A stretch of 64,000 nucleotides of DNA from Candidatus Gastranaerophilales bacterium (GTDB taxonomy: Bacteria > Cyanobacteriota > Vampirovibrionia > Gastranaerophilales > Gastranaerophilaceae). Position 1 is the stretch's first letter; the number at the start of each line of letters is the position of its first letter. Location of the stretch: NCBI GenBank assembly GCA_944324845.1, contig CALUXX010000006.1:1-64000 (forward strand), read 5' to 3'. The position numbers were made by a program, and so were the translations under genes. Positions 11,847 to 56,326 of the stretch are shown here, piece by piece. Below the pieces are notes generated by a model. The model worked only from the letters and a program-made list of their open reading frames with translations. It searched no databases and was not told the DNA's origin.

Positions 11847-12656
11847 TTAGTCTTCGCTTTCAAGACATTCGTGTCCTGATTTGTGAGATTTTAGTAAAAC
11901 TCCGCGTTTTGAAGTTTGTATAAATTCAATCATTTTTTCAATATATTCGTTCATTGGAATTTCAGCCTTAATTTTTTCGATGGCTTGTGAAGTATTGTAA
12001 TCTTCAGAAATTAACAATTTGAACGCTTCATTTGTTGCAGTTCTTATTTCAAGAGGTACTCCACGTCTTTTTAGAGCTACAACGTTTATTCCACGAGGAA
12101 CAGGAGGTCTGCCTTCACCTTTAGAATATGGTAGAATATCTTGACGAGATGCTGAAAATCCACTGATAATAGCCATATCACCAATTCTGATGTTTTGATG
12201 AAATACGCTCATTCCGCCAACAAATGCGCCAAATCCAACGTGAACGTGTCCGCCTAAAGTTACAAGATTTGCAAGGATTACTTGATCTGCTAAAACGCAG
12301 TTGTGAGCAACATGTGAACCTACCATTAGCAAACATTTATTACCAATTCTTGTTGTAAAATCACCACAAGCTGCGCCTCTATGAATTGTTACGTTTTCTT
12401 TTATAATTGTTTCATCTCCGATAACAACTTTTGTAGGTTCGCCTTTGTATCCCAAATCCTGCGGTTCTGAACCTATTGTTGCAAAAGGTGATATAGTACA
12501 ATTTTTGCCTATTTCTGCAAATTCTATATGAGCATTTGAAATTACTCTTGTTCCGCTTCCTATTTTTACACCTTCTCCTATTATAACGTAAGGTCCTATA
12601 ATTGCATCTTCAGCGATTTGTGCTGATGGATGAATTATTGCAGTTTTATCTATCAT
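11847..12656 (-). CDS. lpxA: UDP-N-acetylglucosamine acyltransferase
   Basis: First enzyme of lipid A synthesis: it adds a 3-hydroxyacyl chain from acyl carrier protein to UDP-GlcNAc in the cytoplasm. 269 residues, close to the E. coli length. Left-handed beta-helix hexapeptide repeats fill about residues 3-185. The active-site segment SHVAHNC places His115 and His118, the latter matching the catalytic histidine. LANLVTLGGHVHVG and GGMSVFHQ are typical. A helical C-terminus follows, with an extra acidic tail of about 12 residues. GGAGAGATT precedes the ATG. No other lpx gene is adjacent. Its presence shows a Gram-negative outer membrane. Confidence 0.95.
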   Translation of the reverse strand: MIDKTAIIHPSAQIAEDAIIGPYVIIGEGVKIGSGTRVISNAHIEFAEIGKNCTISPFATIGSEPQDLGYKGEPTKVVIGDETIIKENVTIHRGAACGDFTTRIGNKCLLMVGSHVAHNCVLADQVILANLVTLGGHVHVGFGAFVGGMSVFHQNIRIGDMAIISGFSASRQDILPYSKGEGRPPVPRGINVVALKRRGVPLEIRTATNEAFKLLISEDYNTSQAIEKIKAEIPMNEYIEKMIEFIQTSKRGVLLKSHKSGHECLESED

Positions 12657-44980: not shown

Positions 44981-45613
44981 ATGTTTAAGAGTAGAATAAG
45001 TGCATTACCCAATTATTGTAATGGGAAATTGTATAGCCGCTGGGATAGAGTGACAAATGTTTTTGGTGAAAAAAGTCTTTTAGCTATAAAAAGAAACAAA
45101 AAAGGTGAAACTGTTGAATTGTTGATTTCTGAAGATGGCAAAAGAGAATTATTTACTAATGATTATAAGATTATGGATATATTCGGTGATGACCGTGTAA
45201 AACGTACTTATACTTATCAAAAAACAAAAGATGGTATTGTTGGCAGGATGTCTGTTGACGAAAGTAATGAAACTAAACCTTTAATTACTGCAGCAAATTG
45301 GTTAGTTAAAAATTTCGTTCCTCAAGAAGTAAATTTAACTTTAAATACAAATCATCCAAAAGCAACAATGTATGTGCCTGATGTTAAGGTTATTGAAGAT
45401 CTTATGAATTCAAAACCTATTGTTGTAAAAAATATTAAGGCTACTAATTTTTCTAAGGATATAAAATCTTTACCTTCAAAATTAGAAATGACTTCTGTTG
45501 ATGGAAAAGTTGCTGTTTCTGATTCTCCTGAAACAGGTAGTATTTTTGCCTCAAAATATAGAGCTACAAAACCTGAAACTCATCCTATGGAACATATTAA
45601 TGTTGTTGTATAG
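44981..45613 (+). CDS. hypothetical protein
   Basis: 210 residues, not recognised. There is no signal peptide or membrane helix. The first 60 residues look beta-rich (RWDRVTNVFGEKSLLAIKRN, ETVELLISEDGKRELF). A Ser/Lys-rich end follows. GGAGGAGG before the ATG is a very strong ribosome site. It is divergent from the SLH gene and about 110 nt upstream of the MlaA fusion. Confidence 0.65.
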   Translation: MFKSRISALPNYCNGKLYSRWDRVTNVFGEKSLLAIKRNKKGETVELLISEDGKRELFTNDYKIMDIFGDDRVKRTYTYQKTKDGIVGRMSVDESNETKPLITAANWLVKNFVPQEVNLTLNTNHPKATMYVPDVKVIEDLMNSKPIVVKNIKATNFSKDIKSLPSKLEMTSVDGKVAVSDSPETGSIFASKYRATKPETHPMEHINVVV

Positions 45614-45722: not shown

Positions 45723-47828
45723 TTGAAGAAAAAATTTATTATATTTTTATTTGTATTTTTGCTGTTTTTTAATAATTTTTCTATTTTAGTTTTTGCCAAA
45801 GAAACAAGATATCCTGATTATTCTTACGAATTTTTAGGTGATGATGATTTTGAAAGCTTCAATAGGAAAATTTTTAATTTTAACTTAAAGCTCAATAAAT
45901 ATGCAATTCGTCCTATTCATATTCTATGGGCATCAATTATGCCTCAATACGGTATGGATAGGCTTCGTTCTATGGCAAATAATATTGAATATCCGATAAG
46001 ACTTATAAGCAGTCTTATTCAAAGAGATTTTGAAACTTCTAAAAATGAAACAATTCGTTTTTTTACGAACACTGTTTTTGGATTAGGTGGAATGTATGAT
46101 CCTGCAAAGAAATTTTTGAAAATAGAACAATCTAATGAAAATATGGAACAAGCTTTAGCTGGGTGTAAGGTAAGTTCAGGTAAATATTTTGTATTACCCA
46201 TTTTATCTTTTACCACCCCCAGAGGTATTTTAGGTAAGATTCTTGATACTGCCCTAAATCCCGGTTCTTATATCGGAACTCCAATTTTAGCTATAATTAA
46301 AGCATGTTTTACGATTAATAGAACTTCTTATTATCAAGATATTATAAAAATGGTTGAATCAACTTTTGCCGATCCTTATGAAATTGCAAAAATGATTTAT
46401 GGAATAAGTGATTATGTAAGGTGCAATAATTATGACAGAATAAATATTTTAGATAGTTTGTTTGTTCCTGTTTTAGTGGCTAATAATGAAGTTAAAGAGC
46501 AGAAAGTTGATTTGAAAAATTCGCCTGAAAAACCGAAAATTAAAGAAGATAAAGTTGTAAAAATGGAAGTTTCATCTGAGATTGCAACTCCTAATATGTT
46601 GTATGGCGGTGCATCTAAAGAAGATGAATACACAAATAGCTATAGTGCAGAAGATTTTAGGCTTGATGCTGATATAAATTTAGCCGGTTATAATCCCCAA
46701 TCTCCTGTTATTGATTCAATGCGTACTGCATTGTTAAATAATCCCGAAGTTAATAAATCTATTTGGAATGAATTATCTATTTGGAACAGAAGTTTTTCAA
46801 ATAGGATAAAGACTTCTAAAATAACTATAACAGAAGGGAAGGATGATTATAATTTTCGCTATATTATGCAAAAAGATACTTCGAAATCTCCTGTTGCAAT
46901 AATTTATCCTTCTATTGGAGAGGGGATAAATTCCGAGCATTCGGTAATTCTTGCAAAAATGTTTTATGATGTCGGATATAGCGTAATTATACAGGGAAGT
47001 CATTTTCAATGGGAATTTGTAAAGAGCATGCCTAAAGATTATCACCCTGGATTGCCCGCTGAAGATGCTAAAAAAATTCTTTTAGTAACTTCGAAAATCC
47101 TTGAAAAACTTCGTCTAAAGTATGATTATGAATTTGAGGATAAAGTTTTTATCGGAACATCTTTTGGAGCTTTAGAAACATTATTTGTCGGAGCGGAAGA
47201 ATATAAGCATAATACATTGGGAAATTCCAGATATATTTCAATTTGCCCACCGATTGAATTATTGTATGCGATGAAACAGGTCGATAAAAATGCGCAAGAG
47301 TGGAACAATTCTCCTGATGAATTTAAGCATAGAGTTGCTACAACGGCTGCGAAAGTTATAAAATTTTATAATTTGAAAGAAGATGTAGATTTTGAGATAA
47401 ATAATTTGCCATTTAGCGAATATGAAGCAAAACTTATTACAAGTTTTCTTATGCACCAAAAACTTGCTGATTTGATTTTTACTATTGAAAATTCCTCTAA
47501 TTCTAAGCCGAATTCGGATATTTATAATTATATTAATAATATGGGTTTTGAAGATTATACTAAAAAATATGTTTTGCCTGTTAATTATAAATTAGAAGAT
47601 TTGTCCTATGATACAAGTTTATATTCAATCGCATACTTTTTAGAAAATAGTGATAATTATAAAATTTATCATTCCGTAAATGATTATCTGACAAATCCAT
47701 ATCAAATGAAAAAATTGAAACAGTATTCCAAAGATAAATTAACTTTGTTTGATAATGGTTCACATTTGGGTTTTTTATATAGAAATGAATTTCTTGAAAA
47801 TTTAAAACAGACAATAATCGGTCACTAA
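45723..47828 (+). CDS. MlaA (VacJ) domain fused to an alpha/beta hydrolase-like domain
   Basis: 701 residues. A signal peptide ends near residue 26 (VFA|KE) with no lipobox cysteine. The MlaA domain (about 35-240) has DFESFNRKIFNFNLKLNKYA, RFFTNTVFGLGGMYDPAKKF and LPILSFTTPRG. MlaA proteins draw phospholipid from the outer leaflet of the outer membrane. After a Lys/Glu linker (about 255-300), a C-terminal domain (about 370-700) has an alpha/beta hydrolase elbow GTSFG with Ser480, a candidate Asp654 (YHSVNDY) and His681 (DNGSHLGF). It begins with TTG, 7 nt after GGAG. The role as a lipid hydrolase is an inference. Confidence 0.8.
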   Translation: MKKKFIIFLFVFLLFFNNFSILVFAKETRYPDYSYEFLGDDDFESFNRKIFNFNLKLNKYAIRPIHILWASIMPQYGMDRLRSMANNIEYPIRLISSLIQRDFETSKNETIRFFTNTVFGLGGMYDPAKKFLKIEQSNENMEQALAGCKVSSGKYFVLPILSFTTPRGILGKILDTALNPGSYIGTPILAIIKACFTINRTSYYQDIIKMVESTFADPYEIAKMIYGISDYVRCNNYDRINILDSLFVPVLVANNEVKEQKVDLKNSPEKPKIKEDKVVKMEVSSEIATPNMLYGGASKEDEYTNSYSAEDFRLDADINLAGYNPQSPVIDSMRTALLNNPEVNKSIWNELSIWNRSFSNRIKTSKITITEGKDDYNFRYIMQKDTSKSPVAIIYPSIGEGINSEHSVILAKMFYDVGYSVIIQGSHFQWEFVKSMPKDYHPGLPAEDAKKILLVTSKILEKLRLKYDYEFEDKVFIGTSFGALETLFVGAEEYKHNTLGNSRYISICPPIELLYAMKQVDKNAQEWNNSPDEFKHRVATTAAKVIKFYNLKEDVDFEINNLPFSEYEAKLITSFLMHQKLADLIFTIENSSNSKPNSDIYNYINNMGFEDYTKKYVLPVNYKLEDLSYDTSLYSIAYFLENSDNYKIYHSVNDYLTNPYQMKKLKQYSKDKLTLFDNGSHLGFLYRNEFLENLKQTIIGH

Positions 47829-55041: not shown

Positions 55042-55070
55042 ATAATATCTCAAACATATTTTATTGTCAA
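55042..55070 (-). promoter_or_regulatory. promoter of tRNA-Leu
   Basis: On the minus strand a consensus TTGACA (55065-55070), 17 nt and TATTAT (55042-55047). The -35 overlaps the end of the patatin gene. It is the best-matching promoter in the window. Confidence 0.75.
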
Positions 55071-56269
55071 TCAGAATATTTGTTTATATAGTCTTTTAGT
55101 AGTGTTTCTCTTTTTTCCAAATCCTTTATTATTGATATAAGGGTATTAGTTATTGTTGTTGAGTTTTTACAGGTTGAGCGACCTAAAAGTCCTGATTTTA
55201 CATTGTTGAATAAAAACTTTTGAAACATACTGATTGAATGATATATGTCTTCGTCAATATAATTTTTTACTTGTGCCAGTTCTATAAACAATTCTGAAGT
55301 TGAATTTTTTGCCAGCAGAAATTTCTTTTGAAGCATAAAAAAGTGTATTCTGTTTAGTTTATCTAAAAGTTTTGAATATATTTCTGCGATTTTTCTTTTT
55401 TTATCTACCAATGTTTTTGTAAAATATTCTTTTGCTTGTTTATAGCCGTTATCAATAATTGCTTGTCTTTTTTCTTTCGGATAATTGAAATCTACTACAA
55501 CTACATTTCCTGTGTTTATTACTAAGTAATCATATTTATCCGAATTGCCGTATAAACTTTTTATAAAATCAGTTTCTGTTGATGTCATGCAAGAATACAT
55601 TCCGTTGACGTATTCTACAGGGCTGTCATCTGAACCTTCAAAACTTCCTTCCAGTCTAACTTCAAGTATTCTGTTGTCACAATTTTTTAGGTTTTCTGAC
55701 AACATCCACATCGGTTTTCCCTTCATTAAATCCCCATCTACCAAAAGTTCATTATTTATATTGATGGCTCGCATAAGCCCTGGCATGCAACAAGAAATTC
55801 TTACTGCCATTGCAATTTCATAATCGGGAGTTTCAAAGGTCGAAAATTCTCTACATTTAAATGTGTGTAAATCTGTTGTTATGATTACTAAGTTTTTGTC
55901 TATATCAGAAAATTTTACCGGTTTATTTTGTCCGCTTACATATTTGTCGCCATAGTATTTTTTTTCTATCAGTTCTCTTAGCCAGTTTAAGAAAACTTCG
56001 CCTTTACTTAGTGCAAATTTTTGGTTAAATCCAAATGATATATCTCGGAATAGTTCAAAGTTTACAGAAAGAAAAGCATCTGCCAATTCTTCAGATGTGT
56101 ATCCTACAGCGTAAAGCATTGCTACCATTGCCCCAACTGATGAGCCGGCTATGGTTTTGGGGTGGATTTCCATTTCTTCAAGGCACTTTACAACTCCGGC
56201 ATGCGCTGAGCCTCTTATGGCTCCACCTCCAAATAAGCAAGTGTAATTCTGATTTTCGTACTCTCTCAT
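55067..56269 (-). CDS. patatin-like phospholipase
   Basis: 400 residues. The oxyanion loop is FGGGAIRGSAH, with Arg in place of Lys/Gly at the usual RG position. The nucleophile is GSSVGA (about residue 40), and the catalytic Asp is in DGDLMKG rather than the usual DGG. It probably cleaves acyl chains from lipids. The C-terminal 120 residues are helical. The start at 56269 is chosen because an extended -10 ends 7 nt upstream, giving a leaderless mRNA. Two earlier in-frame starts are less likely: one overlaps the -10, the other lies in the terminator loop of the preceding gene. Confidence 0.87.
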   Translation of the reverse strand: MREYENQNYTCLFGGGAIRGSAHAGVVKCLEEMEIHPKTIAGSSVGAMVAMLYAVGYTSEELADAFLSVNFELFRDISFGFNQKFALSKGEVFLNWLRELIEKKYYGDKYVSGQNKPVKFSDIDKNLVIITTDLHTFKCREFSTFETPDYEIAMAVRISCCMPGLMRAININNELLVDGDLMKGKPMWMLSENLKNCDNRILEVRLEGSFEGSDDSPVEYVNGMYSCMTSTETDFIKSLYGNSDKYDYLVINTGNVVVVDFNYPKEKRQAIIDNGYKQAKEYFTKTLVDKKRKIAEIYSKLLDKLNRIHFFMLQKKFLLAKNSTSELFIELAQVKNYIDEDIYHSISMFQKFLFNNVKSGLLGRSTCKNSTTITNTLISIIKDLEKRETLLKDYINKYSD

Positions 56270-56276
56270 AAGTTTC

Positions 56277-56285
56277 ATTCTAACA
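56277..56285 (-). promoter_or_regulatory. extended -10 promoter of the patatin gene, predicted leaderless
   Basis: The minus strand reads TGTTAGAAT, then 7 nt, then ATG. It is the same 14-mer context as upstream of the gene at 36520. Confidence 0.5.
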
Positions 56286-56286
56286 T

Positions 56287-56326
56287 AAAAAGAGAGATTA
56301 ACATTCATCCGTTAATCTCTCTTTTT
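56287..56326 (-). terminator. terminator of the small HEAT-like gene
   Basis: AAAAAGAGAGATTAAC pairs with GTTAATCTCTCTTTTT around an 8-nt loop. It is 23 nt after the stop at 56349 and immediately upstream of the patatin promoter. Confidence 0.85.

Follow-up and report, generated by a model that had tools for sequence, protein, structure and literature searches.

The window analyzed here, a stretch of 64,000 nucleotides from a Candidatus Gastranaerophilales genome, encodes at 45723..47828 (+ strand) a 701-aa protein in which an MlaA domain runs on into an alpha/beta hydrolase. This locus raises the question of whether a single protein could both extract misplaced phospholipids and cleave them, as a preliminary description of the sequence had supposed.

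Architecture, predicted fold and active site

The gene, assigned here to a putative MlaZ-MlaY type, is an open reading frame with a TTG start and the Shine-Dalgarno-like CAGGAGAG upstream, and all features of the protein given below lie on the + strand. The N-terminus reads as a Sec-type signal peptide (residues 1 to about 25, 45723..45797), and homologs are alike in this region. The preliminary description was right that a lipobox is missing, since no lipobox Cys was present in the protein or in the 29 first homologs; a loose lipobox pattern occurred in 6 of 131 further full-length copies (86 distinct), three of the six being one protein with its Cys within a hydrophobic stretch. The MlaA domain (residues 40-226, 45840..46400) matched PF04333 with an E value of 3e-40 and a score of 138 bits (cut-off, 25), and it is followed by a disordered and variable linker (residues 253 to 311, approximately; 46479..46655), which aligned with many gaps, and by the MlaY-like alpha/beta hydrolase domain (from about residue 318 to residue 701, 46674..47825).

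The fold of both halves was examined in AlphaFold models. With 30 related sequences as input, only the hydrolase half was well modelled (mean pLDDT 63.7), and structure searches with this model missed the MlaA chain; this was an effect of model quality, as the model built from 77 diverse sequences recovered MlaA. The latter model had a mean pLDDT of 82.6 and a pTM of 0.81 for the whole chain, both halves were well modelled, and pLDDT fell below 50 only in residues 253-311 and in a short segment close to the signal peptide. Its best Foldseek matches were solved MlaA chains, with esterases next. VIA-align superposed the MlaA half on 5nuo_B (Z 19.9, rmsd 2.7, 194 residues aligned), which identifies an MlaA fold, and the hydrolase half on the esterase 5lcn (Z 19.1 over 241 residues), in agreement with the two domains first proposed. 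Also in the model, a helical insert (about residues 511-643) separates strands 6 and 7 of the hydrolase half.

Ser480 in the GTSFG nucleophile elbow (47154..47168), Asp654 (47682..47684; candidate acid residue) and His681 (47763..47765; candidate base) were found at the positions given in the preliminary description. In the model they come after strands 5, 7 and 8, respectively, which is the classic arrangement of such a triad. All three residues were invariant in 30 homologs and again in 77 of 77 homologs picked for diversity, with identity down to 46%. The PSIGEG motif after strand 3 (residues 396-401, 46908..46925), which is a candidate oxyanion-hole loop, was invariant in 30 of 30 homologs and nearly invariant in the 77, and its Gly399 is common to the fusion hydrolase and MlaY. 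A triad arising by chance was ruled out by this invariance together with the match to the MlaY residues described below.

The joining of the two halves is likewise not an error of sequencing. The single reading frame was kept across the Gastranaerophilales family. A frameshift or assembly artefact was ruled out, because about 60 genomes in the sample of the class have the fused frame and a genome collection yielded 142 confirmed loci with it. These results confirmed that an MlaA domain, a disordered linker and an alpha/beta hydrolase are carried in one chain. Neither of the outcomes named beforehand as refuting the preliminary description, a C-terminal half with another fold or a triad that varies among homologs, was observed.

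Kinship with MlaY and paired genes in other lineages

A domain search of the C-terminal half returned no Pfam or NCBIfam match, and we compared it through a profile of its own, scored against a set that included about 1,100 other frames. The profile found P. aeruginosa MlaY (PA3238) with an E value of 5e-24, as well as one Fusobacterium and two Skermanella hydrolases (4e-22 to 3e-11), yet it matched no alpha/beta hydrolase of the PDB at E values up to 10; the sequence kinship is thus specific to MlaY and its relatives. An hhalign comparison of the hydrolase half with P. aeruginosa MlaY extended over 307 columns at about 22% identity (E 4e-18), and Ser480, Asp654 and His681 coincided in the alignment columns with MlaY Ser187, Asp388 and His415.

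Lineages outside the phylum were sampled through plasmid records by tblastn with the whole protein, and sites were found at which both halves matched. The P. aeruginosa sites carry two adjacent genes, one for an alpha/beta hydrolase and one for a VacJ lipoprotein. We identified this pair as PA3238 and PA3239 (MlaY and MlaZ) from gene context and residue numbering, as in the hydrolase at one site (L180) the Ser, Asp and His fall exactly on positions 187, 388 and 415, and the active-site residues of MlaY are given as Ser187, His415 and Asp388 (PMC11977310). At a further P. aeruginosa site, on plasmid pPALO11 (L181, 4700-6100), the hydrolase gene beside the VacJ gene is unannotated and may be disrupted, since its match falls in two pieces; a patatin-like gene lies close to the pair on this plasmid.

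Hydrolase and MlaA-family genes were thus neighbours in three other lineages: besides P. aeruginosa, they overlap by 29 bases in Fusobacterium vincentii (L179) and are adjacent, with a VacJ gene as the partner, in Skermanella mucosa and Skermanella rosea (L184 and L185). These pairs share the two parts of the fusion but keep them in separate genes, and at least one partner of each Fusobacterium or Skermanella pair is lipoprotein-like by sequence. On the Skermanella plasmids, a TamB-domain gene, of a family linked to outer-membrane lipid traffic, directly follows the hydrolase-VacJ pair, and an RND pair lies upstream of it. The hydrolase gene comes first in all three lineages, whereas in the fusion the hydrolase follows the MlaA half, and parts that are adjacent genes in some lineages and fused in the opposite order in another are a classic sign of joint action. 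As a genomic association, an MlaA partner occupied the same chain as the MlaY-type hydrolase in 60 of 60 matching genomes.

Since the hydrolase half is homologous to MlaY, the triad falls on that of MlaY, and MlaZ is an MlaA paralog, the fusion protein is, as judged from sequence, a putative single-chain MlaZ-MlaY in reversed order. In a tree of the MlaA domain (23 rows, long branches), a clade of the fusion and MlaZ was neither recovered nor rejected (p-AU 0.374), so that a formation of the fusion independent of MlaYZ is possible.

Distribution and genomic context

The class sample comprised 194 genomes, of which 97, as counted from the listing, belong to the family of the fusion. An MlaA match was observed in 60 of the 194, all within this family and all in frames of 650-827 aa, which shows that every one of them is fused. 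About 37 of the 97 family genomes, roughly a third, have no fusion gene; the gene is thus non-essential in the family. When 292 genomes of the phylum were searched with the profile of the hydrolase half, no genome from another family gave a good match. The scan of the genome collection gave 142 relatives (80 kept), whose names fit Gastranaerophilales save for generic or doubtful ones, and the closest named relatives were Candidatus Gastranaerophilales and Melainabacteria genomes, largely from the animal gut. One contig filed under a Muribaculaceae MAG (L039) has a fusion gene and flanking genes typical of Gastranaerophilales, which probably reflects a wrong label or a mixed bin.

In the 1.96-Mb host genome the fusion gene stands alone; its neighbours vary among genera, and no conserved operon partner was found in the neighbourhoods compared among them. 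Directly upstream in the window, a 210-aa protein without a Pfam match is encoded at 44981-45613 (+), and a patatin-like phospholipase (PF01734, E 1.5e-28) is encoded about 7 kb away at 55067-56308 (-). In several genera, an RND efflux pair, consisting of an HlyD-type adaptor and an AcrB-type pump, is encoded a few genes away from the fusion (for instance at 7305-11742 of L058, and at about a dozen other loci among L053-L111). One genus has a short, stand-alone MCE gene of the MlaD type on the opposite strand, some 1.5 kb away from the fusion gene (L105, 2892-3542 (-); L111, 2888-3532 (-)), with a nucleoside phosphorylase between the two; the host-genome counterpart of this MCE gene is on another contig (L195).

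The absence of mlaBCDEF genes noted in the preliminary description holds within the window, but other parts of the genome contain two genes for MlaE and three for MCE (MlaD) proteins. Nearly all genomes of the class have the MlaE and MlaD families, which are equally frequent in relatives without the fusion; the MCE/MlaE proteins of the host could act together with the fusion protein. MlaC (PF05494) was not found in the host genome or in any genome of the family in the 194-genome sample, and it was present in 37 class genomes, all from other families and none with MlaA. PldA (PF02253) was found neither in the host genome nor in any of 97 family genomes, nor within the fusion protein itself. Every family genome searched had LpxC, which implies lipid A that is to be kept on one side of the membrane. 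Together with an LpxA-like gene (11847-12656, as read from the sequence) and a gene for a glycosyltransferase-9 protein, both within the window, LpxC leads us to expect LPS. Comparison of fusion gain and loss with LPS gave no contrast, LpxC being present throughout the genomes searched.

A proposed single-chain phospholipid clean-up pathway

In our view, the fusion probably represents the MlaZ-MlaY phospholipid clean-up pathway in a natural, single-chain form, with its activity and lipid transfer being predicted. In P. aeruginosa, MlaZ and MlaY are reported to take out misplaced phospholipids and break them down (PMC11131202, PMC12569750, PMC11977310), and it is proposed that MlaZ removes the misplaced phospholipid and then hands it over to MlaY for degradation (PMC11131202, PMC12569750). 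By analogy, the signal peptide suggests that the fusion protein would be exported by the Sec route; homology and fold point to an MlaA half residing in the outer membrane, where phospholipids that had strayed into the outer, LPS-bearing leaflet would be led through the MlaA channel to the periplasmic side. The flexible linker would keep the MlaY-like hydrolase next to the periplasmic opening of this channel, the site at which a canonical MlaA would meet MlaC, and the one-chain architecture suggests that the lipid is handed straight between the two parts. Ser480, His681 and Asp654, conserved and matching the MlaY triad, are predicted to cleave acyl ester bonds, and the products would be freed into the periplasm for recycling. 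Since MlaC was undetected in the family, destruction on the spot probably replaces the MlaC-carried return of the whole phospholipid; a carrier would not be needed because the MlaA half would deliver the phospholipid to the tethered hydrolase. The combination of extraction and cleavage in one protein, as first supposed, is thereby supported as a predicted activity by the homology to MlaY and the membership in the MlaA/MlaZ family. Against this reading stand the modest identity to MlaY given above, the MlaA-domain tree, which does not group the fusion with MlaZ in preference to other MlaA, the roughly one third of family genomes that have no fusion gene, the MCE/MlaE genes of the host and the lack of a lipid anchor on the fusion.

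More tentatively, and with the odds rather against the full statement, the fusion may be an MlaC-free, one-protein system of outer-membrane quality control, in which one polypeptide extracts and destroys misplaced phospholipid. Such a system may have arisen separately from the MlaYZ operon, by the joining of an MlaA and an MlaY-type lipase, and may be the sole route of the MlaA type throughout a family of non-photosynthetic Cyanobacteriota.

Three other functions were weighed against the clean-up pathway. The MlaA half might import gut phospholipids or lysolipids, and the hydrolase might release fatty acids from them to sustain growth, with no role in asymmetry, and the gut-type genomes as well as the patchy occurrence of the gene among species, as expected of a niche function, would suit such scavenging; nevertheless we regard it as unlikely, given that MlaA draws lipid from within the membrane, that no lipid-use operon adjoins the fusion gene, and that the closest two-gene system, MlaY-MlaZ, is described in PMC11131202 and PMC12569750 as serving asymmetry. 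Less likely still is an acyltransferase, for which a misplaced phospholipid would be the acyl donor and some other molecule the acceptor: a Ser-His-Asp triad and a lipid donor suit both hydrolysis and acyl transfer, but there is no sign of an acceptor, and PMC11977310 describes MlaY as a lipase and P. aeruginosa mlaY mutants as breaking down less cardiolipin. Ordinary retrograde transport, in which the MlaA half would hand intact lipid to the MCE/MlaE proteins and the hydrolase would be a non-catalytic dock or regulator, is the least probable of the three, for despite the MlaE and MCE genes of the host and the MlaD gene close to the fusion in one genus, the family has no MlaC, the MCE/MlaE genes do not track the presence of the fusion, and the triad is invariant. 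Thus, neither scavenging nor acyl transfer nor a non-catalytic domain fits the data better than the single-chain clean-up pathway.

Compared with known systems, the fusion shares with MlaY-MlaZ an MlaA-family protein, an alpha/beta hydrolase, the same triad and the approximately 307 homologous columns, but it differs in being one chain with a disordered linker and the MlaA half in front, instead of two genes with the hydrolase first; moreover, P. aeruginosa also has the canonical MlaA (PA2800) pathway, whereas the family of the fusion appears to be without MlaC. The canonical MlaA/VacJ, which works with OmpC/OmpF and MlaC-MlaFEDB, has the same domain and fold, and the fusion differs from it by carrying an enzyme and by having neither a lipobox nor an MlaC in its family, although a lipobox is not universal in the wider MlaA family, P. 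aeruginosa MlaZ being without one too. PldA (OmpLA) resembles the fusion in its proposed job, the destruction of misplaced outer-leaflet phospholipid, but its domain is absent from the family genomes searched, and its fold is a beta barrel, unrelated to the alpha/beta hydrolase of the fusion. The MlaY-MlaZ system is that of Guest et al. 2023, as reported in PMC11131202, PMC11977310 and PMC12569750; the literature that we searched contained no report of an MlaA-hydrolase fusion. The two-protein pairing of MlaZ and MlaY is therefore already known, and the principle is less new than the preliminary description implied; what appears to be unreported is the one-chain form with its parts in reversed order, its occurrence in this lineage and the lack of MlaC there.

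The hand-over from MlaZ to MlaY in P. aeruginosa is a proposal. A natural fusion that a family has conserved, and that joins the parts in the opposite order, provides independent evidence that both parts act on the same lipid, and it would offer a one-gene reagent for testing the hand-over. Taken together, the results would extend this clean-up route beyond the Proteobacteria, to Fusobacteriota in the form of paired genes and to the Vampirovibrionia among the Cyanobacteriota, and they suggest that outer-membrane asymmetry may be maintained without MlaC or PldA.
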